This document shows positions 19,999 through 34,037 of a stretch of DNA of 64,000 nt, one piece after another. Position 1 is the stretch's first letter. The number at the start of each line of letters is the position of its first letter. Source of the DNA: Armatimonadota bacterium (GTDB lineage Bacteria > Armatimonadota > UBA5829 > DSUL01). The notes under the pieces were generated by a model, which was not told the DNA's origin, did no database searches, and saw nothing but the letters and a program-made list of their open reading frames with translations. The position numbers were made by a program, and so were the translations under genes. Where the stretch lies: assembly GCA_020846715.1 (NCBI GenBank), contig JADLDK010000023.1:1-64000 (forward strand), read 5' to 3'.

Positions 19999-22900
19999 TC
20001 AAGGGAGTGCGGGACCCGCCTCGATCTTGACATCCGTGCGGCCTCTGGGAATCAGCTTCCGGATGCATACACCCATGTTCGTGTCTGTGCTCATGATGCC
20101 GGTGACATGAAGATAAGCGCCCACAGGAATCTGAGCCGCCGCAATGCCCGACATGCTCAGATCCACCTTGACGCCTCGGTTCAGCTCACCGCTGGCGGAG
20201 TGTGTGCCGTCCTTCAGATTGGACCCGTCATCAATCCACACAGCATTCGCCACCGGGTCTATGCCTGTCACAGTTCCCCACGTCCGAACCAGCGACCCGA
20301 CATTATTCAGCCCAACGGCGTAGAACACGTCGAAGAAGCTGTCTATGACCGCGGACTGATTGCCTTCAGTCTCACCACCGGTTGTCTTGTTATTCATACC
20401 GAGCGGCAGGACTGAGGCTTCCCCGTCATAGGCGATGGAAGTGGGGACAACAACGACTTCGCATCCCACGACGTCCACTACGCCCTCGACATCAACTTCC
20501 ATTCCGCCCATCGGGCCAGCCTGCACCGGTCCAAGAACCGCGATTCCGGCGCTTCGATCCGGAGGAACCCCTGGGGTATCCGGATCCACATCGCTTCCAC
20601 CCCGATACAGCTCGGAGATATAGAAGCGATCCGGGAACGCTGCCGTAATGACCTTATTCGGCAGGCAGACCACGGTTCCGACCGGCAGGAACTTCACATG
20701 CCCGATGTTCAGACAGCGCTTCTTGGTGTTGCTCTGAAGCGGCAGCCCGGTCTTACACACGTCAGCGCCGGTAGCCATATTGACCGCGCTCACCTGTGTC
20801 AGAGTCATGCAGTAGGTACCGTTGATGGTCCCTGGGAGCTTCATGATGTATTCCACCAGGAAGCACATACAGGACGGATTGGCCGCTGTCCCGGGCGGCA
20901 GAATGAAGCTGCTGCTCGGGCAGATAACAGCCGTGCCGTTATCGGACGGATAGGTTCCGGTTCCGAACACAGGCTCTCCAAAGTCGGCAACACCATTGCA
21001 GTTGGTGTCAGCGATGACGCGGATGAGCGCGATGTCCTTCTTGTCGTTACCCGACCCGCACGCCTGAAGCTGGATGCAGCCCAGGCGAACATCCTGCGGA
21101 CACGGATTGCAGATCTGGAACTGGAACATGCGGTTACGCTTCGGCAGGCCCGGCCACCACTTGTGGTTTGGTGGGTTGTTCGGCCCGGGTCTGATATCGA
21201 GACAGCACGGCTCCGGTGACACGATCTTTATTGCGCTTGTCAAGGGAAGCGTGTTGGCGCAGATGGGTTCGCAGTTGGGTCCAAGGATGTCCGTCAGGAC
21301 AAAACCATAGGTCCCGCCCGGATTCGGGCACTTCATCATGTAGTAGAAGTTGAAGCACACGCATTCGCCCGGCTTCAGCGCAATAACTCCATTCGGACTG
21401 CACAGGCGCGCAATCCCGTTGTCTGAGCTATATGCGCCCGTCAGTGTTATTGGAGGCGTCTCCGGCTGACCGTCGCAGTTCCGGTCAATCTGAAGGACGA
21501 CCGCCGAGATACCAGACTGATCGTTACCCGTGCCGAACGCCTTCAGCATGACTCCGCTGATGAACTTGACATCCGGGCAAGGATTGCAGATGCGCACCTT
21601 CTGCATCAGGTTGAGCGCGGGATCACCACCAGGCGGACACACGAAATCATGGTCCGGCACCTGACCGTTCAGCCCAACCTCCAGGCAGCACGGTGTGGTC
21701 TCAATAGTCTTGACGGCGCTGCGAATGGGGAGAGTCTCCACACACAGCGGAACGTCACATCCCGGGCCTCCGAGAGATATCAGGTCAAAGTAGTACGTCC
21801 CCGGCACAACCGGACACGTCATGATGTAGTCCACCCGGATGCAGACGCACTGCCCCGGCTGCAGACAGAACAGCGGCCCGCCGGTCGGGCTGCAGATCAC
21901 CAGCAGTCCGTTATCGGCCCCGTACTGGCCTGAGGCGATATTCACCGCATCGGGCTTGCCGTCGCAGTTGTAGTCCAGGCTGATCAGCACCTTCTGAATG
22001 CCGGTAGCGTCGTTCCCGGTGCCGCCTGCGTGTAATCTCAGCCCATAGACACACTGCGTGGTTGGACACGGATTGCAGACCCGGACTTCCTGCATGAAGT
22101 TCGGCGCATTCAGCCCGTCAGCGCTGCACTGGAACGTGTGGTCCGGCGGGTTGTGATCGCCTTTCACAGCAGTCAGACAGCACGTGGTCACGGTCTTGAT
22201 GGAGCTGCGGATGGGCAGTGGACCCGCACACACAGGTTTGCAGTTGGAACCAAGAATTCCCGTCACCGCAAAGCCGTAGGTCCCTGGCGGGACATTCGGG
22301 CACTTCATCCTGTAGTAGACGTTCAGACAGATGCACTCACCTGGCTGCAGAACGTACAGCGGCGCTGTCGGCAGACAGATGCTGGCTGTGCCATTGTCCG
22401 CGGAATAGATTCCGCTGGCGCTCGGACCGTCAATGACTCCGTCGCAGTTTCGATCAACGGCAACGATGACCGAAGAGATGCCGGCAAGGTCATTTCCGCT
22501 GCCAAACGCCTGGAGACTCAGCCCGTAGACCGGCTGCGGCGTCGGGCACGGGTTGCAGATGCGAACCTGGCCCATGAAGTTCAGCGGGTTGTTAGGCGTG
22601 CAGATGAAGTTGTGATCCGGCGGCGACTTCGGCCCCTTGCTCACCTCCAGACAACACGGCCTGACAACGGTCTTGGTGGCGCTTGGAATTGGCAGGGTGT
22701 TTGCGCACAGCGGCTCACAATTCGGGCCCCCAAGCAGCGCTTGAAGTGTGAAGCTGTAGGTCCCCGGCGGGGCGTTGCAGTTCATCTGGTATTCGATGCG
22801 AATACAGACGCACTGGCCTGGCTCCAGACATGCAAGAGGACCGGTCGCCGGATCACCGCACCAGCTCAAAGTGCCGTTGTCGGAGCTGTATGTTCCGATT

Positions 22901-24237
22901 GGCCGCGGCGCGGTATCGGCCTTTCCATCGCAGTCGTAGTCTATACTGACCAGCACCTGCGCGATACCCGTCAGGTCATTGCCGGTGCCATTAGCCACAA
23001 GCTTCAGGCCGTCAATGCACTTGTAGGTGTCGCATGGGTTGCAGATACGGACTTCCTGCATGAAGTTGCGCTCCGGATTCTGACCGGGAGTGCAGGTAAA
23101 AGTGTGGTTTCCAGGATTGTGCGGCCCAGGCTGCACTTGCAGACAGCAGTCTTCCACGTTCTTGCACGCGCTCTTCAGCGGCAGGACGTTGGCGCAGATG
23201 GGCTGGCAGTTCGGACCAAGAATAGCGTCCAGCTCGAAGCAGTACTGCCCCGGCGGGGTCGGGCAGCGCATCTGATAGTAGATATTGATGCAGACGCACT
23301 GTCCTGGCGCAAGGGTATAGATGGGTCCGAGTGATGAGCAGAACGTCAGCGTCCCATCGTCGGCCGTGTACGCTCCCGCACTGATGAGGGCGGTGTCCGG
23401 ATTACCATCGCAATCTTTATCAATGGCCACCAGAACCTGCTGAATCCCCGCGACGTCATTTCCCGATCCGAAGGCCTTCAGAATGAGACCGCTGATAGGT
23501 TGCGGCGTCGGGCACGGATTGCAGACCTGCGCCTGCATCATGAAGTTGGGAGCGTTCACCGTGCCGGGCACACACTGGAAGTCGTGGTCGGCAGGATGCT
23601 TCGGACCGTAAGATACTTCCAGACAGCACGGCTGATCGCACTCTACGGTCTTAATGGCGCTCTTGAAAGGAGCGTTCGGATTACACAGCGGGTACGGCTG
23701 ACAGTTCGGACCCTGCAGGATAGAGGTAATCGCGAACTGGTAGGTGGCTCCGCACGGGGCATCCGGCTTCAGAACATATTCGATCAGCAGACAGATGCAC
23801 CGGTCTGTCGTGAGGTAAGTCGCTGCGAAAGGCAGCGTTGGATTACATACGGTCAGCGTGCCATTGTCAACCGGGTAGCCGCCTGGAACCGTAATAACGG
23901 GGTCTCCTGAGTCCGGCACTCCGTTGCAGTTCACATCGTAGGTGATGCGCACAGCCTGGATGTCCGTGGCATCGTTTCCGGTGCCGGACGCCGTCAACCG
24001 GAGGCCGGTAACATTGATAGGCTGATTCACTCCCGGCGGACACGACAAGCATAGCTTGGCGTGCATCATGAGGTTCGGCTGATCCGGGTTAGCCGGATCA
24101 AAATGCCACGTATGGTCCGGCGGTTGAGCCGCTCCTGGCGTGACGTTGACGCAACAGAGATTCTGCGCGACCACCGACACGCTGCCCAGAAGCGACAGCG
24201 CCAACAGCGCTGTCACAAACAACAGTCGTGCTTTCAT
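19999..24237 (-). CDS. Large secreted Cys-rich seven-repeat protein with C-terminal OB-like module
   Basis: 1412 residues with signal peptide (LLFVTALLALSLLGSVSVVA). Seven repeats of about 165 residues, each opening CCLxVxxGPxNPPDHxF, then FMQxVRICNPCP, GSGNDxxGIxxVxxxIDxNCDG (Asp-rich, EF-hand-like), DNGTLxxC, LxPGQCVCIxIxYxMKCP, PGTYxF and ANTLPIxSAxKTV. Each unit keeps many Cys, including a CVC pair and a CC pair, pointing to disulfides in the periplasm or outside the cell. The last about 234 residues are a beta-rich module with FPDRFYISE and WGTVTGIDP...VWIDDGSN, also present in two other secreted proteins here. No enzyme signature. Likely a structural surface protein. Single gene with its own terminator. 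Confidence 0.8.
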   Translation of the reverse strand: MKARLLFVTALLALSLLGSVSVVAQNLCCVNVTPGAAQPPDHTWHFDPANPDQPNLMMHAKLCLSCPPGVNQPINVTGLRLTASGTGNDATDIQAVRITYDVNCNGVPDSGDPVITVPGGYPVDNGTLTVCNPTLPFAATYLTTDRCICLLIEYVLKPDAPCGATYQFAITSILQGPNCQPYPLCNPNAPFKSAIKTVECDQPCCLEVSYGPKHPADHDFQCVPGTVNAPNFMMQAQVCNPCPTPQPISGLILKAFGSGNDVAGIQQVLVAIDKDCDGNPDTALISAGAYTADDGTLTFCSSLGPIYTLAPGQCVCINIYYQMRCPTPPGQYCFELDAILGPNCQPICANVLPLKSACKNVEDCCLQVQPGPHNPGNHTFTCTPGQNPERNFMQEVRICNPCDTYKCIDGLKLVANGTGNDLTGIAQVLVSIDYDCDGKADTAPRPIGTYSSDNGTLSWCGDPATGPLACLEPGQCVCIRIEYQMNCNAPPGTYSFTLQALLGGPNCEPLCANTLPIPSATKTVVRPCCLEVSKGPKSPPDHNFICTPNNPLNFMGQVRICNPCPTPQPVYGLSLQAFGSGNDLAGISSVIVAVDRNCDGVIDGPSASGIYSADNGTASICLPTAPLYVLQPGECICLNVYYRMKCPNVPPGTYGFAVTGILGSNCKPVCAGPLPIRSSIKTVTTCCLTAVKGDHNPPDHTFQCSADGLNAPNFMQEVRVCNPCPTTQCVYGLRLHAGGTGNDATGIQKVLISLDYNCDGKPDAVNIASGQYGADNGLLVICSPTGGPLFCLQPGQCVCIRVDYIMTCPVVPGTYYFDLISLGGPGCDVPLCVETLPIRSAVKTIETTPCCLEVGLNGQVPDHDFVCPPGGDPALNLMQKVRICNPCPDVKFISGVMLKAFGTGNDQSGISAVVLQIDRNCDGQPETPPITLTGAYSSDNGIARLCSPNGVIALKPGECVCFNFYYMMKCPNPGGTYGFVLTDILGPNCEPICANTLPLTSAIKIVSPEPCCLDIRPGPNNPPNHKWWPGLPKRNRMFQFQICNPCPQDVRLGCIQLQACGSGNDKKDIALIRVIADTNCNGVADFGEPVFGTGTYPSDNGTAVICPSSSFILPPGTAANPSCMCFLVEYIMKLPGTINGTYCMTLTQVSAVNMATGADVCKTGLPLQSNTKKRCLNIGHVKFLPVGTVVCLPNKVITAAFPDRFYISELYRGGSDVDPDTPGVPPDRSAGIAVLGPVQAGPMGGMEVDVEGVVDVVGCEVVVVPTSIAYDGEASVLPLGMNNKTTGGETEGNQSAVIDSFFDVFYAVGLNNVGSLVRTWGTVTGIDPVANAVWIDDGSNLKDGTHSASGELNRGVKVDLSMSGIAAAQIPVGAYLHVTGIMSTDTNMGVCIRKLIPRGRTDVKIEAGPALP

Positions 24238-25663: not shown

Positions 25664-26134
25664 ATGAAGACCCGATCAACTGAGCTATCCAGAGGACTGG
25701 CAGTGCTTGTCGCCGTAATTCTCGCGACGATGACGGCGTCCTTCGCCTCGGCATGGTTTTGTCCGAACGGCGCTCGATGTGGCAGCGCGGGATCGGCGTG
25801 CCAGACAGGACACGAAGCATCTCAAACAGACGCTGCCCAGGCGGCTGAAGCATGCCCTGCGTGCACCTCGCGCACGAGCGCCTCAACACCGGAGATTACA
25901 TCGACTCACAAGTGTGTTCTCCTCCTGAGTCACGTGGGCGACGCGGCTACAGCAGCGGCACGGGCATCCTGGGAAAGTAACTCCAGCATCTCTTCGCTGG
26001 CTATCCTTTCAGACTCCAGTGTTCTCTCGCCATCAGCATATCTGGGCACTGAACACCTCTACTGCACAGATTCCTCACCACCTCCGAGCGTGATTTGTCA
26101 CATCTCGGCCGGACTCTCTCCCCCCGACCTCTGA
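25664..26134 (+). CDS. Small Cys-rich secreted protein upstream of the efflux locus
   Basis: 156 residues. Signal peptide ends near ASFASA (about 30). The mature N-terminus carries Cys 33, 39, 46, 64, 67 and 84, with a CPAC pair at 64-67 and His at 50, 82 and 90, a metal- or redox-suggesting pattern. The remaining part is Ser-rich and of low complexity. No family recognised. It is 165 bp upstream of, and collinear with, the adaptor-pump operon; a role in metal sensing or binding would be an inference from position and Cys content. Confidence 0.55.
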   Translation: MKTRSTELSRGLAVLVAVILATMTASFASAWFCPNGARCGSAGSACQTGHEASQTDAAQAAEACPACTSRTSASTPEITSTHKCVLLLSHVGDAATAAARASWESNSSISSLAILSDSSVLSPSAYLGTEHLYCTDSSPPPSVICHISAGLSPPDL

Positions 26135-26299: not shown

Positions 26300-28705
26300 A
26301 TGAGACATATCCAGAGATGGATTCTGCCCATATTAGTGGGTTTGCAGGCTCTTTTGACAGGTATAGCGGCATGGGCTCTGCCTCAGGCGAAGGCGGGGCC
26401 GTACCGCGTCACGCTGGTCACACGCCCCGAGACGATTCCTGTAGGGCAGGCGGATATCGTTTTGTCTATTACCGATGACGCCGGCAAGCCTGTCGAAGAT
26501 GCTGCGGTCCGCGCCATAGCGCGTATGCCAGGTATGCCGATGGGTGAGCGCGAGCAGATCGCAGCGCCCGGCAAAGAAAGCGGGCAGTACGTTGCGCCGG
26601 CCGTCTTTCCCATGGCGGGCGGCTATGAAATAGCCGTGTCCATAAACGGACACCACGGCAGCGCCAACGCAACGTGGCAAGTGAAAACAGGTCAAAACAC
26701 CGCACTTTCCCAGCGCGGAATCCCCCTCAATGTGGCCGGCCTCGTCGTTCTGCTCGCCGTCGCCGGTGCGTTTGTTATCGCCCGTATGCGCGCTACAGAG
26801 CAGAGGGTCTACTGGAAGGGCATGCTGACAAAGCCAGTCGTTACGGGAATGCTGCTGCTTATCGCAGGCGTACTCGTGGCGATGTTCGCAGTTCATCACT
26901 TCAGGCGTGAAGGCGCTATGACCCCCATCGAAGCCCAGGCGATGGAGATGAATACCCCTGCCCCGCCCGGAGTTGCACCGGTGGTTTTGGCAAAGGTGGA
27001 GCGGCGGACTATTACCAGCGCTGTCCGCTACACAGGGCAGGCCGTGGGATACGTGGAGCAGGACGTGTTCCCGCGCGTCACTGGCGTCATAACCTGGATG
27101 CCCTACTATGCCGGCGACCGCGTCAAGGCAGGACAGCTTCTGGCCAGACTGGACACAACGCAGATCGATCCGGAATTGCAGGGGCGCGAGGCTGCGCTGC
27201 AGGTCACGCGGCAGGGGATTGGAGTAGCACAGAGCGAGATAGACAAGGCTCTGCGGGCGGCAGAGCGGGCAAGGGCTGAGCACGATGGAGCACGGGCTGC
27301 GGTAGCTGAGGCAGAGGCGAATCTCGCAGCGGCGCAACAACAGAGAGAATCCGCTTCTGAGGGGGTGACATCAGCTCAGGCGGCAGTCACCGATGCCCGA
27401 GCGCAGGTTGAGGCTGCGGATGCGGATCGGCAATACTGGCGCGGGCAGATCCAGCGCACGGCTGAGTTGCTGAAGGCCGGCGCCGTATCCGGCGAAGAAT
27501 ACAAGCGCGACAAAGCCCAGGCAGACACATCAGAAGCCAGGGTCAGGCAGGCTCAGGCGCAGGTGCAAAAAGCTGTCGCCGGTGTCAGAACAGCACAGAG
27601 CGCTCTCCGGGCATCAGAAGCGGGAGTGAAGGCCGCGCAGGCCAGGCTGAAGCAGGCAAATACGCAGCAACAGGTGCAGCGCGCAAATATTGGAGAAGAG
27701 GCGGCCGGTGTTGAGGTCGCGCGCAGAAAACTGGCCCAGGCTGAGGCGACCGCGGCGGAGAGCCGCGCATCGGTGCTGTCGGCGGCGACAACAAAGAGCT
27801 ATTCGCGGATACTTGCGCAGACGGATGGCGTCGTCACACAGCGGCTGATCAGCCCCGGCGTCCTGGCCAGCCCTGAGCAGGCTATTTTGAAGATCGCTCA
27901 GATCAGTCCAATACGCCTGCAGGTCAACGTTTCCGAACCCGATATCAGCCGGATCCGGCCGGGAAACAGTGTGAAAGTGCAGCCGAAAGAGGGCGGAAAG
28001 CCGCTGGACACGCGTGTGTCGTCGGTATCTCCGGCGCTTGATCCACAGTCACGCATGGGCGTCGTGGAAGCCATCGTTCCCAACGAAGATCACCGGTTTC
28101 TACCAGGCTCCTACGTAGTTATGAGCATCAACACCGGGCTCACCCACAACGCTCTCACTGTGCCGGTTGAGGCAATCCAGTACGACAACGAGGTGCGTGG
28201 CGCGCAGAGCAAGGCTTCTCAGCCGTACGTGTGGCTGGCGCAGAGCGCGCCCGGCGGCAGCCTCACGGCTCATCGCGTGGACATTACCACAGGAGTCACA
28301 GATGGGCAGTACACGGAGATTCTTTCGGGTCTGACAGACGGGCAGAAGGTGATCACCGAGGGTCAGGACTATCTGAAAGAGGGTGATGCGCTTGTGGACA
28401 GCAGCGAGGCCCCCGCGCAAACGCAGGCGACACAGACAAGCGATATTCAGACGGCGCAGATAGAGGTGCTTTCAGGTGGCTACAAACCGTCCAGCGTGAC
28501 ATTGAGACCTGGCGTGCGAGCCAGGCTGACTTTTGTGAGGACGTCGGAAGTCGGGTGCGGCACGGAAGTGCTGATCCCAGCCTACGATGTTGACAAACCC
28601 CTCCCGCTGAACAAGCCCGTCATCGTCGAAATCACCCCGCGCAAGGGTGAGTTTCAGTTCAACTGCGGGATGAACATGCTCAAAGGAAAGCTGGTGGTGA
28701 AGTGA
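26300..28705 (+). CDS. Efflux adaptor (RND periplasmic fusion protein) with YtkA-like and cupredoxin-like domains
   Basis: 801 residues, a three-part fusion. 1-26 signal peptide. About 31-130 a YtkA/FixH-like domain (TLVTRPETIPVGQADIVLS, Met-rich MPGMPMGE). Two membrane segments at 141-162 and 179-198. About 215-710 an RND adaptor: barrel and lipoyl strands (YVEQDVFPRVTGVITWM), a very long Ala/Gln/Arg coiled-coil hairpin (about 300-520), and a second half with IRLQVNVSEPDISRIRPG and LTVPVEAIQYDN. About 720-801 a cupredoxin-like domain with EVLIPAYDV and FNCGMNMLKGKLVVK (Cys-Gly-Met-Asn-Met). Its stop overlaps the GTG of the pump gene. Bridges pump and outer channel; the added domains suggest metal or redox handling. 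Confidence 0.85.
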   Translation: MRHIQRWILPILVGLQALLTGIAAWALPQAKAGPYRVTLVTRPETIPVGQADIVLSITDDAGKPVEDAAVRAIARMPGMPMGEREQIAAPGKESGQYVAPAVFPMAGGYEIAVSINGHHGSANATWQVKTGQNTALSQRGIPLNVAGLVVLLAVAGAFVIARMRATEQRVYWKGMLTKPVVTGMLLLIAGVLVAMFAVHHFRREGAMTPIEAQAMEMNTPAPPGVAPVVLAKVERRTITSAVRYTGQAVGYVEQDVFPRVTGVITWMPYYAGDRVKAGQLLARLDTTQIDPELQGREAALQVTRQGIGVAQSEIDKALRAAERARAEHDGARAAVAEAEANLAAAQQQRESASEGVTSAQAAVTDARAQVEAADADRQYWRGQIQRTAELLKAGAVSGEEYKRDKAQADTSEARVRQAQAQVQKAVAGVRTAQSALRASEAGVKAAQARLKQANTQQQVQRANIGEEAAGVEVARRKLAQAEATAAESRASVLSAATTKSYSRILAQTDGVVTQRLISPGVLASPEQAILKIAQISPIRLQVNVSEPDISRIRPGNSVKVQPKEGGKPLDTRVSSVSPALDPQSRMGVVEAIVPNEDHRFLPGSYVVMSINTGLTHNALTVPVEAIQYDNEVRGAQSKASQPYVWLAQSAPGGSLTAHRVDITTGVTDGQYTEILSGLTDGQKVITEGQDYLKEGDALVDSSEAPAQTQATQTSDIQTAQIEVLSGGYKPSSVTLRPGVRARLTFVRTSEVGCGTEVLIPAYDVDKPLPLNKPVIVEITPRKGEFQFNCGMNMLKGKLVVK

Positions 28706-31700
28706 AGGAGCGTCTGAGCCGCAACTTCCCACCGCACGGCTACAACCCGCTGCACATGATCCACAGGTGGTCCATCGAGCACCCGTACGTGATCGCCTCC
28801 CTTTACGTATCGGCGCTTCTGATGGCGTGGATCAGCATGTCGCATATGCCACGCCGGTTTGCTCCGTATGTAGAAAGCCCGATGATTGGCGTGGTCACGA
28901 TGATGCCCGGACTCTCGGCCGAGGACATGGAGCTCTACATCAGCAAGCCGATAGAAGAGCAACTCATCAATGTTCAGGGGCTGAGGTTCATCCGGTCAAA
29001 CTCTCAGGATGGCTTCTCGATTGTGACACTGGAGTTCCCGTACGGGACGAACATGCAAAAGGCGATCGTGGATATCCAGTCGCTGATGAATGTCGTACAG
29101 TCCAATCTGCCACAAACGGGCGCGAACTTGAAGCCTTCCTGGGTAGTCCCCATTGACCCTCTCAATCTGCCGATTCTGTCACTCAGCCTGACCGGCGATG
29201 AGGCGGAAGGCTGGAATGAGGCAAAAATTCGAGAGTTTGCGGACAACACAGTTATCAACCGCCTGAAGGGACTGGAGCACGTGTACTCGGTTGTCCCGTT
29301 TGGAGGCTACCGGCGCCAGATTCAGGTTGTCGTCGATCGGGACAAATTGGGCGCTTATAAGTTCTCTATTCTGGACGTCAAGAACGCGATTGACCGGTTC
29401 AATGTCAGCCGCCCGGCCGGAATCTTGACAGAGGGTTCTGCAGAGGACATTGTCCGCGTTGACACACGCGCGGTCTCGGCGCAGGACGTGATGAACTATC
29501 CCATCACCCGCATCAGTAGCGACGCCGCCAGTGCATCCTCCGCACTGTCTCCAGGCCTGTCTTCTGTCTCTTCAGCTTCCCCACGGGTCGTGTATGTGCG
29601 GGACGTCGCCCGTGTCATTGACTCCCACTGGGAAAAGCGCAGCGGCTACCACTATATGAAGCACGAGCGAGGCAAGAGCGGAAGAGTCATTCCTTCGATT
29701 GAGGTCTCGGTCATTCAGAACCCTGGCGCGAGCTCGGCGCAAGTGGTCCCCGCAGTGATGGATGCGGTACGTCAGCTTGAGAACGAGAATCCGGGTCTCA
29801 AGTTCGAGGTAGCGTACGACAATGCGCACTTTGTAAACATCCTGTTCCACAACGTCTGGCACGAGCTGGGGCTTGCTATTTTGCTGACCGGTATCGCCGT
29901 GTTACTCTTCCTTGGCGAATGGCGCGGTACGCTGATAGCGATGATCACGCTGCCGACCTCTCTGGCTCTGGCTGTTCTGATGATGACTGCTCTGGGAATG
30001 ACGTTCAACAGCGGAACACTGATTGGCCTGCTGCTGTGTATCGGGCGGCTGGTTGACGACTCAATCATTGACATTCACGCCGTTGAGCGCCATTTACGCA
30101 TGGGCAAGGACGCAAAGACTGCGACCATTGACGGCATCGCCGAGGTGCGTGTCGCGGTTCTGGCTTCAACTCTGATGATTGTCCTGGCGCTGACGCCGCT
30201 GCTGTTTGCTGGGGGTATCACTCAGCTTATGTTCGTCGAACTGGTGTGGCCGATCATCTTTGGTCTCCTGGCATCCATGCTGGTTTCCTTTACGCTGACG
30301 GCGCTGTTGTGCGCAAAACTGCTGAGACACGACGAAGAAAGAGAAGCAGACCGCAACAGTCCTGCGGGACGGATTCTCTACAGGGTGCTAGACCCGGTAC
30401 AGGGGTGGCTGGACAGGCTGGAAGCCGGATACGCACGGCTGATCAGGTGGCTGCTTCACCACAGGTTCATCAACTTCGCCCGCGTCATGGTGACAGTTGT
30501 CCTCGGGTTCACGTTCTACTACTTTCTGGGCAGTGAGATGATGCCTCTCGCTGACGTAGGGCAGGCGAATGGCTTCCTGGAGATGGCGCCGGGGACTTCC
30601 TATGCGCAGACAGAGCGCGCCGTGCATCAGCTCGAGAAAATCATGCTCAAGCATCCGGAGATAGAGAAAGCGAGCATTGAGATCGGCTCCGAATCAATGT
30701 TTGAGTCTTTCACGCCCTTCTATACAGGCTACCAGATGCCACAGGTGAGCGGTGCGGCGATGATGCTGACTTTCAGCGACAAGGATTCGCGCCGCAAGAC
30801 GATCTGGCAGGTGATGGACGCAGTGCAGAAAGAGGCGCTGGAGACTATCCCTGGAATCCGTAGGCTCCAAATCAAGGAGATGGGTTCCGACGTGATGGCT
30901 ACTGCTGCTGCGCCTATCCACGTCAACATCTATGGTCCTGATCTGAAAGAGCTGGACCGCCTTGGGCGCGAGGTACTGAAGGTGGCCGAAAGGATGCCAG
31001 ACGAAGTGTACCAGCCCGCGACAACCTGGTCACTGCAGCAACCGGAGTTTCAGGTGAAAGTGAATCCGGAAAGGGCCGCTGAGGTGGGATTGTCCCCGGA
31101 GAATATCTCAGAACAGGCGTATTACGCTCTCAGAGGTGGTCTGACGAGTGAGTTCCTTCGCGTTCCCAATCTGCGCCAGAGCACGATTCTGGTGCGCTAT
31201 GAAGAAGACCAGCGGCAAAAACCTGGCGATCTCTCCCACCTCTATGTCACCTCAAGTGACGGGACACAGATTCCTCTTGAGAGCGTGGCAACCATCACGC
31301 GTAAGAAAGCGCCGACTGTTATCGAACACGACGGGCTCAAGCGGGTCATCGGAGTGACTGGCTACTACAGAATAGGCAGTCTTCCCTCAATGGACGTTGT
31401 GATGAATCTGGTGGCAAACGCGTACGGAGGCAACGAAAAGCTGGGAATTGAGCCCGTCAACTTTCCGCCGGGTTACGGCATGGAAATGCGCGGCGACATG
31501 ACGCAGATGATGGACAGCTTCCGCCGGATGTTTCATGGTCTGGGGCTGGCAATTCTGTTTATGTATCTTGTGCTGGTGATGCAGTTCCGCGGATTCCTGC
31601 AACCGCTGCAGATGATAGCCTCATTGCCACTGGAGCTTGCGGGAGTCTTTGTTGCGCTGTTCATTGCGCACCAGTCATTCTCAACAGTATCAATTCTGGG

Positions 31701-32130
31701 TATCATCGTCCTCACAGGCATGGACATTACGACGGCCATCCTGTTGATTGACATGATCATGAAGTACCGCGACAAAGGGATGGCGCGCGACGAAGCCATC
31801 GTACAGGCGTGCCCACAGCGGCTGCGTCCGATATTGATGACAGCGGGAATAGCGCTGATTGTCCTTCTGCCGGTTGCGGTGGCGCCAAAAACCGGGCTGG
31901 ACGCCTATCAGCCGCTGGCGACAGCCGTTGTCGGAGGACTGCTGGTAGGCACAATCCTCAGCCTGTTTGATATTCCGATCATGCACACCTACGTTGACGA
32001 TTTTATCGTGTGGCTCAACCGGACATTTCTCAACAGAGAGTGGCACTGGCCGGTTACGGAGTCACCGGACGACCCGTCTTTGTACGATACGAGCAAATCC
32101 ACGGGTTCTCAAGAACCCGAATCACCGTGA
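28702..32130 (+). CDS. RND-superfamily efflux pump, inner-membrane component
   Basis: 1142 residues from GTG at 28702, whose GTGA overlaps the stop of the adaptor gene. Membrane segments occur in the usual 12-helix RND plan with two big periplasmic loops (about 45-350 and 640-910). Marks: YISKPIEEQLINVQGL, YDNAHFVNILFHNVWHELGL, TM4 GRLVDDSIIDIHAVERH with the acidic proton-relay pair, and DAIVQACPQRLRPILMTAG in the second half. The length is longer than typical HAE1 members (1040). DDSxxxxxxxxERH resembles CzcA/CusA heavy-metal pumps, but it lacks the methionine ladder that can be checked only by alignment. Substrate undetermined; metal export is suggested by neighbours. Confidence 0.9.
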   Translation: MKERLSRNFPPHGYNPLHMIHRWSIEHPYVIASLYVSALLMAWISMSHMPRRFAPYVESPMIGVVTMMPGLSAEDMELYISKPIEEQLINVQGLRFIRSNSQDGFSIVTLEFPYGTNMQKAIVDIQSLMNVVQSNLPQTGANLKPSWVVPIDPLNLPILSLSLTGDEAEGWNEAKIREFADNTVINRLKGLEHVYSVVPFGGYRRQIQVVVDRDKLGAYKFSILDVKNAIDRFNVSRPAGILTEGSAEDIVRVDTRAVSAQDVMNYPITRISSDAASASSALSPGLSSVSSASPRVVYVRDVARVIDSHWEKRSGYHYMKHERGKSGRVIPSIEVSVIQNPGASSAQVVPAVMDAVRQLENENPGLKFEVAYDNAHFVNILFHNVWHELGLAILLTGIAVLLFLGEWRGTLIAMITLPTSLALAVLMMTALGMTFNSGTLIGLLLCIGRLVDDSIIDIHAVERHLRMGKDAKTATIDGIAEVRVAVLASTLMIVLALTPLLFAGGITQLMFVELVWPIIFGLLASMLVSFTLTALLCAKLLRHDEEREADRNSPAGRILYRVLDPVQGWLDRLEAGYARLIRWLLHHRFINFARVMVTVVLGFTFYYFLGSEMMPLADVGQANGFLEMAPGTSYAQTERAVHQLEKIMLKHPEIEKASIEIGSESMFESFTPFYTGYQMPQVSGAAMMLTFSDKDSRRKTIWQVMDAVQKEALETIPGIRRLQIKEMGSDVMATAAAPIHVNIYGPDLKELDRLGREVLKVAERMPDEVYQPATTWSLQQPEFQVKVNPERAAEVGLSPENISEQAYYALRGGLTSEFLRVPNLRQSTILVRYEEDQRQKPGDLSHLYVTSSDGTQIPLESVATITRKKAPTVIEHDGLKRVIGVTGYYRIGSLPSMDVVMNLVANAYGGNEKLGIEPVNFPPGYGMEMRGDMTQMMDSFRRMFHGLGLAILFMYLVLVMQFRGFLQPLQMIASLPLELAGVFVALFIAHQSFSTVSILGIIVLTGMDITTAILLIDMIMKYRDKGMARDEAIVQACPQRLRPILMTAGIALIVLLPVAVAPKTGLDAYQPLATAVVGGLLVGTILSLFDIPIMHTYVDDFIVWLNRTFLNREWHWPVTESPDDPSLYDTSKSTGSQEPESP

Positions 32131-32148
32131 ATCGAAAGGTAAAAAACA

Positions 32149-32520
32149 ATGAGAAAACATCTCACTCTGATGGCAGCCTGTGCAGCAATCATTGGCGCTG
32201 CAGCTTTTACGGCGGGCACTTTGAACGCCGAGGCAAAAGCGGCGAAAGACCCTCCCAAAGTGCAGACCGCGCAGGTGACAGTGACCGCGGATGGCTATGA
32301 ACCGTCCACGCTCAACCTCAAGAAGGACGTGCGCGCGAAGATCACTTTCACCCGAAAAGTGGACAGCGAATGCGCGTCCGAAGTGGTGTTTCCCGATTAC
32401 AAAGTCCGCAAAAAGCTCCCTCTCAACAAGCCCGTCGTTGTCGAGTTCACTCCTAAGGCCGGAACCTTCAAGTTCACCTGTGGGATGGGCATGTACAAGG
32501 GCAAGCTGGTGGTCAAATAG
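32149..32520 (+). CDS. Cupredoxin-like secreted protein, paralogue of the adaptor C-terminus
   Basis: 123 residues. Signal peptide MRKHLTLMAACAAIIGAAAF..., then a single cupredoxin-type domain (QVTVTADGYEPSTLNLKKDV, ITFTRKVDSECASEVVFPDY, PVVVEFTPKAGTFKFTCGMG, MYKGKLVVK). It is about 60 percent alike by eye to the last 80 residues of the adaptor. The ligand pattern Cys (SEC), Cys-Gly-Met-Gly-Met is typical of EfeO/CusF-adjacent cupredoxin-like domains, although a normal His ligand is absent. Probable role: periplasmic metal binding or chaperone for the pump. Starts 18 bp after the pump gene. Confidence 0.8.
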   Translation: MRKHLTLMAACAAIIGAAAFTAGTLNAEAKAAKDPPKVQTAQVTVTADGYEPSTLNLKKDVRAKITFTRKVDSECASEVVFPDYKVRKKLPLNKPVVVEFTPKAGTFKFTCGMGMYKGKLVVK

Positions 32521-32564
32521 CAAACTCACCAGGCCGAGAGTTGCCGGAGAAAGGACAATACACT

Positions 32565-34037
32565 GTGAGGCACTGCAGTCGTCTGGCGCTGGCAGCGATG
32601 CTTGCGCTATCGACAGGTTGTAGCCTGTCTGCGCAAACTGACCTGCCAGCAAAGGAGATACGTCCTCTGCTCAACGGACCTGTAACCCTAAGCGAGGCCG
32701 TGGAGACAGCGCTGCAGATGAGCCCGCTCGTGCGCGGCTCTGCGGCAGATGTAGAGGCGGCTCAGGCGCGCCTCAGAGCAGCCCGCGCGCAGACACGCCC
32801 CTGGGCTTCCATCACAGCATTGTCCTCTGGTGGAAGTATGGGCAGCATTGTCTCAACTCCCATGAGCGTGCAGCCTTCGATGGCAATGAGCGTTCCGGAC
32901 GGACGCTTTTCCGCTGGAAACCTGATGGTGATGTATCCACTCCTCACCGGTGGCAGGCTCTCAGCAGGAACAAGAAGCGCTATCGCCCAGAGCGCTGCGG
33001 CATCACAGGACCTGGAGACCCGGCAGCAGGATGTCGTCCTGACAGCACGCAACGCCTACCATGAAGTGATCGCGAGGAAATCTCTTGTTGAGGTCGCACA
33101 GGCTCGCTTGCGCGAAGACGAGGAGCGTCTGCGGCTCGACCGCGTGCGGCTTCAACAGGAGCAAATTCCATCCTACTACATTCAGAGAGGAGAGGCAGAA
33201 GTCGCCTCCACTCAGCAGGCGCTGACGAACGCCAAGCGAGACGTCGAACTGGCGCTCATTGCGCTGAAGACTGTGATCGGTCTGGATCCAGCTTCGAAAA
33301 TTGATGTCCAGGGAGCGCTCGACTTCACCCCGAGCGATGAGATTATCCGTAGAATCATTGCCCCGTCGGCTGCGGCTGGCAGCGATGAGAGGCTTCAGGC
33401 GCTGCTGGCAACCGCGCGAAGCCACCGGCCGGAAATAGAGGCCGCTGAGCAGCGAGAGGCAGCCAGCCGCGCACTGATCCAGGCCGCTCGCGGAGAGTTC
33501 AGTCCACAGGTAAACCTGTTTGGGTCCGGAGATATTATGGATAGACCCTCAATGGATTCAAGAGGAGGTGTCACCTTCGGCATTGTCGCTTCAGTCCCCC
33601 TCTACAACGGCGGAGAACGCAGCGCACAGGTGGCAGAGACCAAAGCCGAGCACAGAAAACAGCGCGAACAGCAGGCTCAGGTGGAGCTGCAGATTGCGCA
33701 GGAGGTGCAGTCGGCGCTTGTAAGCCTGCTGGCAGCAGAACAAAACGTCACAACGGCGCAAAAAGCGGTGGACGCGGCAAAGGCGGAATACGAAGCGGCT
33801 CAGAAGCGCTATGAAGTCGGACGCAGTGTTGTCGTCGAAGTTCTGGACTCGGTCACCGCCAAAGTCAGAGCCGAGACCAACGTCGTTCAGGCGCTGTACG
33901 AATACAATCTCGCGCAGGACGCCCTGAGGCGCGCTACCGGTGTTATTGAGACTTCAGAGTCTGAAGAGTCACTGGCTAGTACTGAACCGTCTCCCGCCGC
34001 AGCAAGCGCAGCGAAAAGAGAACAGCCAGCAGAGTGA
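32565..34037 (+). CDS. TolC-family outer-membrane efflux protein
   Basis: 490 residues if started at GTG 32565, which has GAGAAAGGA about 9 nt upstream; a TTG at 32541 gives 498. Lipobox-like LALSTGC near residue 19 suggests a lipid-anchored channel, as in the NodT/CusC group. The rest shows the two TolC repeats: GPVTLSEAVETALQMSPLVR and LLATARSHRPEIEAAEQREA, with long Ala/Gln-rich helices (about 190-260 and 370-460) and a strand part VPLYNGGERSAQVAETKAEH. It completes the tripartite efflux system. Its last 62 bp overlap the permease gene on the other strand. Confidence 0.88.
   Translation: MRHCSRLALAAMLALSTGCSLSAQTDLPAKEIRPLLNGPVTLSEAVETALQMSPLVRGSAADVEAAQARLRAARAQTRPWASITALSSGGSMGSIVSTPMSVQPSMAMSVPDGRFSAGNLMVMYPLLTGGRLSAGTRSAIAQSAAASQDLETRQQDVVLTARNAYHEVIARKSLVEVAQARLREDEERLRLDRVRLQQEQIPSYYIQRGEAEVASTQQALTNAKRDVELALIALKTVIGLDPASKIDVQGALDFTPSDEIIRRIIAPSAAAGSDERLQALLATARSHRPEIEAAEQREAASRALIQAARGEFSPQVNLFGSGDIMDRPSMDSRGGVTFGIVASVPLYNGGERSAQVAETKAEHRKQREQQAQVELQIAQEVQSALVSLLAAEQNVTTAQKAVDAAKAEYEAAQKRYEVGRSVVVEVLDSVTAKVRAETNVVQALYEYNLAQDALRRATGVIETSESEESLASTEPSPAAASAAKREQPAE

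Follow-up and report, generated by a model that had tools for sequence, protein, structure and literature searches.

A predicted Cu(I)/Ag(I) efflux operon of an Armatimonadota bacterium that combines CupA-type cupredoxins with an RND pump outside the CusA/CzcA family

What does an RND efflux complex transport when its adaptor ends in a cupredoxin domain and a similar domain is encoded alone between the pump and the outer membrane channel? This question is raised by contig JADLDK010000023.1 of an Armatimonadota bacterium (assembly GCA_020846715.1), of which a stretch of 64,000 nucleotides (the window) was analysed. The features of the locus are as follows.

25664-26134, + strand: small secreted Cys-rich protein, 156 aa, with a signal-like N-terminus, 8 Cys and a C-terminal SPP
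26300-28705, + strand: adaptor with N-terminal YtkA and C-terminal CupA-type cupredoxin, 801 aa (Pfam, TIGR01730 RND_mfp, AF2)
26387-26638, + strand: YtkA (FixH-like) domain of the adaptor, with the Met motif MPGMPMGE (PF13115)
26918-26950, + strand: Met motif M-T-P-I-E-A-Q-A-M-E-M, adaptor residues 207-217, just past the second TM helix
28424-28699, + strand: C-terminal cupredoxin domain of the adaptor, Cys...Cys-Gly-Met-Asn-Met (PF13473; CupA match)
28702-32130, + strand: RND permease, 1142 aa (ACR_tran E 2.6e-191; tree; Met analysis; AF2)
32149-32520, + strand: stand-alone CupA-type cupredoxin, 123 aa, with a signal peptide or anchor (PF13473 E 7e-20)
32541-34037, + strand: TolC-like outer membrane channel (OEP) with a lipobox-like LSTGC (PF02321 E 7e-56)

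The adaptor, pump, stand-alone cupredoxin and channel are encoded by four close-set genes on the + strand (26300-34037), a group that reaches further than earlier described, continuing to 34037 with the TolC-like channel. The start of the pump gene overlaps the adaptor stop (GTGA), the cupredoxin gene begins 18 bases after the pump gene, and the four appear to be packed as one operon. The Cys-rich ORF, which has no Pfam match, is a probable accessory gene upstream of it. No metal regulator or P1B ATPase adjoining the operon was recognised among the flanking genes in the window; the source genome has two P1B ATPases, both on other contigs. One P1B-type copper ATPase match in this genome (C11:57612-59816, 53% identity) carries one in-frame TAG. 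Also upstream of the operon, on the opposite strand (19999-24237), a gene encodes an exported Cys-rich protein of 1412 aa with many repeats of one domain.

The first-pass annotation had described an adaptor with a YtkA domain and two membrane helices at its N-terminus and a cupredoxin at its C-terminus, and Pfam matches above cut-off together with helices in an AF2 model bore this out. In full, the order is a signal/TM helix, YtkA, two TM helices, an HlyD/CusB-type core and a Cupredoxin_1 tail. YtkA (PF13115) matches residues 30-113 (E 1.1e-13 to 2.9e-13; 52 bits against a gathering cut-off of 25.9) and is the sole match to this family in the source genome. HlyD_D23 (PF16576) spans residues 422-606, Cupredoxin_1 (PF13473) lies above cut-off at residues 709-800 (E 1e-13), and the whole protein passes TIGR01730 RND_mfp (192.9 bits; cut-off 94.9). 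The AF2 model (pLDDT 82) places the two TM helices, which come on top of the N-terminal signal/TM helix, at 143-166 and 178-201, and the implied topology would put YtkA, core and tail all in the periplasm. M207, M215 and M217 look like the M...MDM of CusB, whose N-terminal Met triad takes up Cu(I) from CusF, and constitute a candidate site. Fold comparison of the adaptor matched known adaptors, not the added domains. In the same model, the two hairpin helices (291-392 and 398-499, about 101 residues each) are much longer than usual and perhaps fit a wide periplasm.

A stand-alone paralogue of the cupredoxin tail does lie between the pump and the channel, as first noted, and the proposed Cys-Gly-Met-x-Met motif reads C-G-M-N-M in the adaptor tail and C-G-M-G-M in its free counterpart. 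The pair is not a chance find: a scan of the 3.2 Mb source genome gave three Cupredoxin_1 matches at E<=0.001, and these two score highest. When solved structures were searched by sequence, the stand-alone cupredoxin matched only CupA (2mry/4f2e; E 1e-18) and the N-terminal domain of CopA (E 1.1e-11) of S. pneumoniae, and the top match of the adaptor was CupA again, via its tail (E 2.3e-15). CupA binds Cu(I) at C74/C111 and at C74/M113/M115 (PMC5646241; PMC7558416). All four of these ligands are kept in both window domains, which hold the two Cys of site 1 (C74, C111) as well as the M113 and M115 of site 2 (C-x-M-x-M), and likewise in 18 of 18 aligned domains from related loci. By sequence, therefore, both cupredoxins are CupA-type with a predicted Cu(I) site. 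The suggestion of Cu(I) or Ag(I) rather than blue-copper chemistry, made earlier from a lost His alone, gains strength because the full known ligand set of CupA is present. Plasmids encode CupA-type domains either as small proteins next to CopY and a copper P-type ATPase (Listeria) or as parts of P-type ATPases. A plasmid search with the adaptor's cupredoxin gave 102 matches; the 60 listed include CupA-like proteins and P-type ATPase domains, with no annotated adaptor among them.

A CusA-type pump had been expected beside such domains, and this expectation did not hold. Against TIGR00914 (CusA/CzcA, HME) the pump scores 311 bits, below the cut-off of 701. Its nearest named NCBIfam models are multidrug models, all far under cut-off: NF033617 (531 bits; cut-off 1250) and TIGR00915 (354 bits; cut-off 940). 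Named genomes yielded 199 relatives when scanned, the best 80 of which are mostly titled Armatimonadota or Melainabacteria/Cyanobacteria, and further relatives with about 46% identity sit on cyanobacterial plasmids. A tree was built that took in CusA, a CzcA-family pump, Synechocystis CopA, AcrB, MdtB, MdtC and four paralogues encoded in the source genome. In it, 53 relatives from Armatimonadota, Melainabacteria and cyanobacterial plasmids form one clade (SH-aLRT 100), whose placement relative to the HME and HAE groups the tree does not resolve. The pump groups neither with CusA/CzcA nor with AcrB/MdtB/MdtC. It thus forms its own clade and does not fall in a drug-efflux clade, the outcome that the first-pass annotation had named as speaking against its reading. 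On this sequence evidence the pump belongs neither to the CusA type nor among the known drug pumps, and appears to be a lineage of its own. Synechocystis CopBAC was considered as a characterised relative and rejected, as its pump CopA falls with CusA/CzcA in the tree.

It could be argued that this is a multidrug (HAE-type) pump for an organic substrate that acquired a cupredoxin for sensing or assembly. Such a pump would explain why multidrug models give the best NCBIfam scores (531 against 311 bits), but every one of these scores is far under its cut-off, and the clade excludes AcrB, MdtB and MdtC with full support. The TM4 motif VDD is closer to AcrB/Mdt than to E. coli CusA, but cyanobacterial CusA-family pumps also have VDD. 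Foldseek, used with an AF2 model of the pump (pLDDT 84.8), puts AcrD/AcrB slightly above CusBA; the TM-scores to AcrB (~0.82) and CusA (~0.81) are nevertheless equal, and the fold fails to tell the two apart. Methionine enrichment and metal-binding modules are moreover found clade-wide. We consider this alternative very unlikely, if by a slight margin the most probable of those weighed here.

CusA holds Cu(I) at M573/M623/M672, of which M672 moves with a horizontal helix on Cu(I) binding (PMC8092243). In the alignment these columns are F625, G684 and D730 of the window pump, so the triad is not conserved. Across 53 clade members there are 11 invariant Met besides the start, and 8 of them lie in the porter region (the equivalents of AcrB 560-680 and 815-875), which makes up 18% of the protein (P 8e-5). 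Met accounts for 9.1% of this region in the clade and 3.2% in 13 other RNDs, and the clade is thus about three times richer. Clade-specific Met stand near the CusA triad columns, a few residues away and not on them: M727 and M732 flank the M672 column, and M688, which is not kept in the cyanobacterial members, is four residues off the M623 column. From the alignment, the conserved Met would line the pump cleft, and this looks like the same solution as in CusA with shifted residues.

The adaptors of the clade provide the next line of evidence. When 66 of them were scanned singly for domains, a heavy-metal-binding domain (HMBD) was found in 42, YtkA in 30 and Cupredoxin_1 in 15, so that the adaptor-cupredoxin fusion for which a domain search had been proposed does recur. 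Cupredoxin and HMBD never overlap (15 and 43 adaptors by motif; naive P 2e-9, a value that is too small because the exclusivity partly follows the tree and the test ignores kinship), and in the pump tree the adaptor cupredoxin is mostly confined to one subclade. The HMBD sits inside the C-terminal half of the adaptor core in most relatives; in three loci close to the window type (L069, L072 and L079), it stands at the tail, where their sisters have the cupredoxin. YtkA is N-terminal in Armatimonadota, C-terminal in Melainabacteria and a separate, unfused FixH/YtkA protein encoded between adaptor and pump in Stanieria. A QxMxM just past the membrane helix is present in all 66 clade adaptors (the full motif in 60) and absent from the adaptors (MFPs) of other pumps in the same loci; cyanobacterial members have a Met-rich stretch at this place. 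That modules are exchanged while the core stays constant argues more strongly than anything else for a metal-loading role of the cupredoxin. Several loci are MAG contigs and possibly misbinned. Two contigs titled archaeon and Actinomycetota (L070 and L084) carry Armatimonadota-type copies, probably through misbinning, and the adaptors of L070 and L073 are nearly identical.

Because its relatives swap the cupredoxin for other metal-binding pieces, the metal that the pump expels is most likely Cu(I) or Ag(I). We give a probability of roughly 78% to the reading that the system is a tripartite efflux complex for periplasmic Cu(I)/Ag(I), with a CupA-type metallochaperone in place of CusF or HMBD. 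Counted against it are the CusA triad missing from the aligned columns, multidrug models as the nearest ones, and the lack of a recognised metal gene beside the operon.

The gene neighbourhoods of related loci bear on which metal is handled and for what purpose. In 19 of 81 loci the flanking sequence retrieved includes P1B ATPases, and the cyanobacterial plasmid relatives sit amid genes for P-type ATPases, CopZ-like proteins, multicopper oxidases and MerR-type regulators, surroundings of copper and mercury resistance. An ad hoc filter, not a curated family, picked out Cys-rich ORFs like that of the window, with a hydrophobic N-terminus and an [RS]xPP tail, in 46 of 81 loci; almost all of them precede the adaptor gene on its strand. 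A protein of about 183 aa without a Pfam match is kept in 30 of 81 clade loci (for example L128:6418-6969, directly after the pump), and no copy was found in the window. A small secreted-looking protein, also without a Pfam match, is encoded upstream of the adaptor in L115 (6436-6864) and 13 other loci.

A role in copper supply rather than detoxification would assign YtkA/FixH and the cupredoxins to cuproprotein assembly, where they help to load periplasmic oxidases while the RND complex clears the excess. It draws on B. subtilis, in which YtkA (CtaK) takes part in cytochrome oxidase assembly and YcnJ combines a copper importer with a YtkA domain (PMC12362106). The window, however, encodes a complete tripartite exporter, and the metal-related genes recognised at related loci are those of efflux and detoxification (oxidase genes were outside the systematic search), which makes this explanation very improbable. 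Equally improbable is a specificity for other soft metals (Hg, Au, Cd/Zn or a broad range): thiolate/thioether sites bind several of them and one cyanobacterial relative has merF and MerR-type genes nearby, but CupA-type ligands and Met-rich sites favour monovalent Cu and Ag.

For Cu(I)/Ag(I) efflux, we infer the identity of the metal, the direction and order of its transfer and the role of each module as follows. The stand-alone cupredoxin and the adaptor tail would bind Cu(I) or Ag(I) at a CupA-type Cys2 or Cys-Met2 site, and this metal would come both from an inner-membrane P1B ATPase and from outside the cell. From the carriers it would go to the QAMEM motif at the base of the adaptor, straight to the predicted Met-lined cleft in the porter domain, or to both, and the proton-driven pump would move it out along the adaptor hairpin and through the TolC-like channel. 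The free and fused carriers and the adaptor Met motif would thereby load the pump as CusF and CusB do for CusA. YtkA may serve as a second periplasmic, Met-rich copper-handling module, which is plausible given the connection of such domains with copper in B. subtilis (PMC12362106).

Parts of this arrangement are known from other systems. E. coli CusCFBA likewise has an adaptor, a pump, a channel and a small periplasmic metal carrier in one operon, and M-x-M near the adaptor N-terminus; its Met-based path resembles the one predicted here. Here, however, a CupA-type domain takes the place of CusF, and the pump is 22% identical to CusA and belongs to another clade. The nearest precedent is SilB of Cupriavidus metallidurans, which, as described in PMC4446572 (after Bersch 2011), is an adaptor with a C-terminal CusF-like metallochaperone, of a kind that also exists stand-alone. 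Compared with SilB as described there, the window adaptor has a tail of the cupredoxin/CupA fold (Cupredoxin_1), not the CusF fold, adds the N-terminal YtkA and two TM helices, and serves a pump outside the CusA/CzcA family. CupA and the CopA N-terminal domain of S. pneumoniae (2mry/4f2e, 4f2f) are alike in being cupredoxins by sequence with the four Cu(I) ligands, and in pairing a free carrier with one that is built into the exporter. In the pneumococcus the two serve a P-type ATPase, which removes copper from the cytoplasm, whereas the window pair is predicted to be periplasmic and to feed an RND complex. Synechocystis CopBAC is a copper RND system, as is predicted here, and lies on a cyanobacterial plasmid; unlike the window pump, its CopA falls with CusA/CzcA. 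In B. subtilis YcnJ and YtkA (CtaK), a YtkA domain is similarly fused to or acts with copper-handling membrane proteins, although in copper import or oxidase loading and with no RND pump.

The locus would thus join two copper-handling solutions known apart, a CupA-type Cu(I) carrier and an RND efflux complex, and adaptors with a conserved core but a varying choice of cupredoxin, HMBD and YtkA form a natural set for testing how metallochaperones load an RND pump. More tentatively, and at somewhat less than an even chance, a separate RND lineage may have arrived at Cu(I)/Ag(I) export by a route independent of CusA/CzcA. It would have a Met cluster of its own in the porter cleft, and its adaptors would swap modules for metal loading (HMBD, YtkA at either end, CupA-type cupredoxin). 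If so, the cleft positions required for Cu(I)/Ag(I) could be read from it, and the AcrB/AcrD/AcrF-type names under which such genes are currently annotated would need correcting. The open-access literature searched gave neither a description of this metal-pump lineage nor one of an adaptor-cupredoxin or YtkA-RND fusion, nor any data on induction, binding or a metal phenotype in the clade, an absence that is weak evidence.

Two further observations concern RND pumps related to that of the window. A paralogous pump in the source genome (C50:10449-13538) has 14 Met in the same porter region, the most among the outgroup pumps, and is possibly another metal pump. In two Armatimonadota MAGs (L139:8995-13539 and L143:9001-13533), the pump and the TolC-like channel share one frame of about 1510 aa; this is odd, as the halves belong in different membranes, and may be a matter of stop-codon loss or of assembly.
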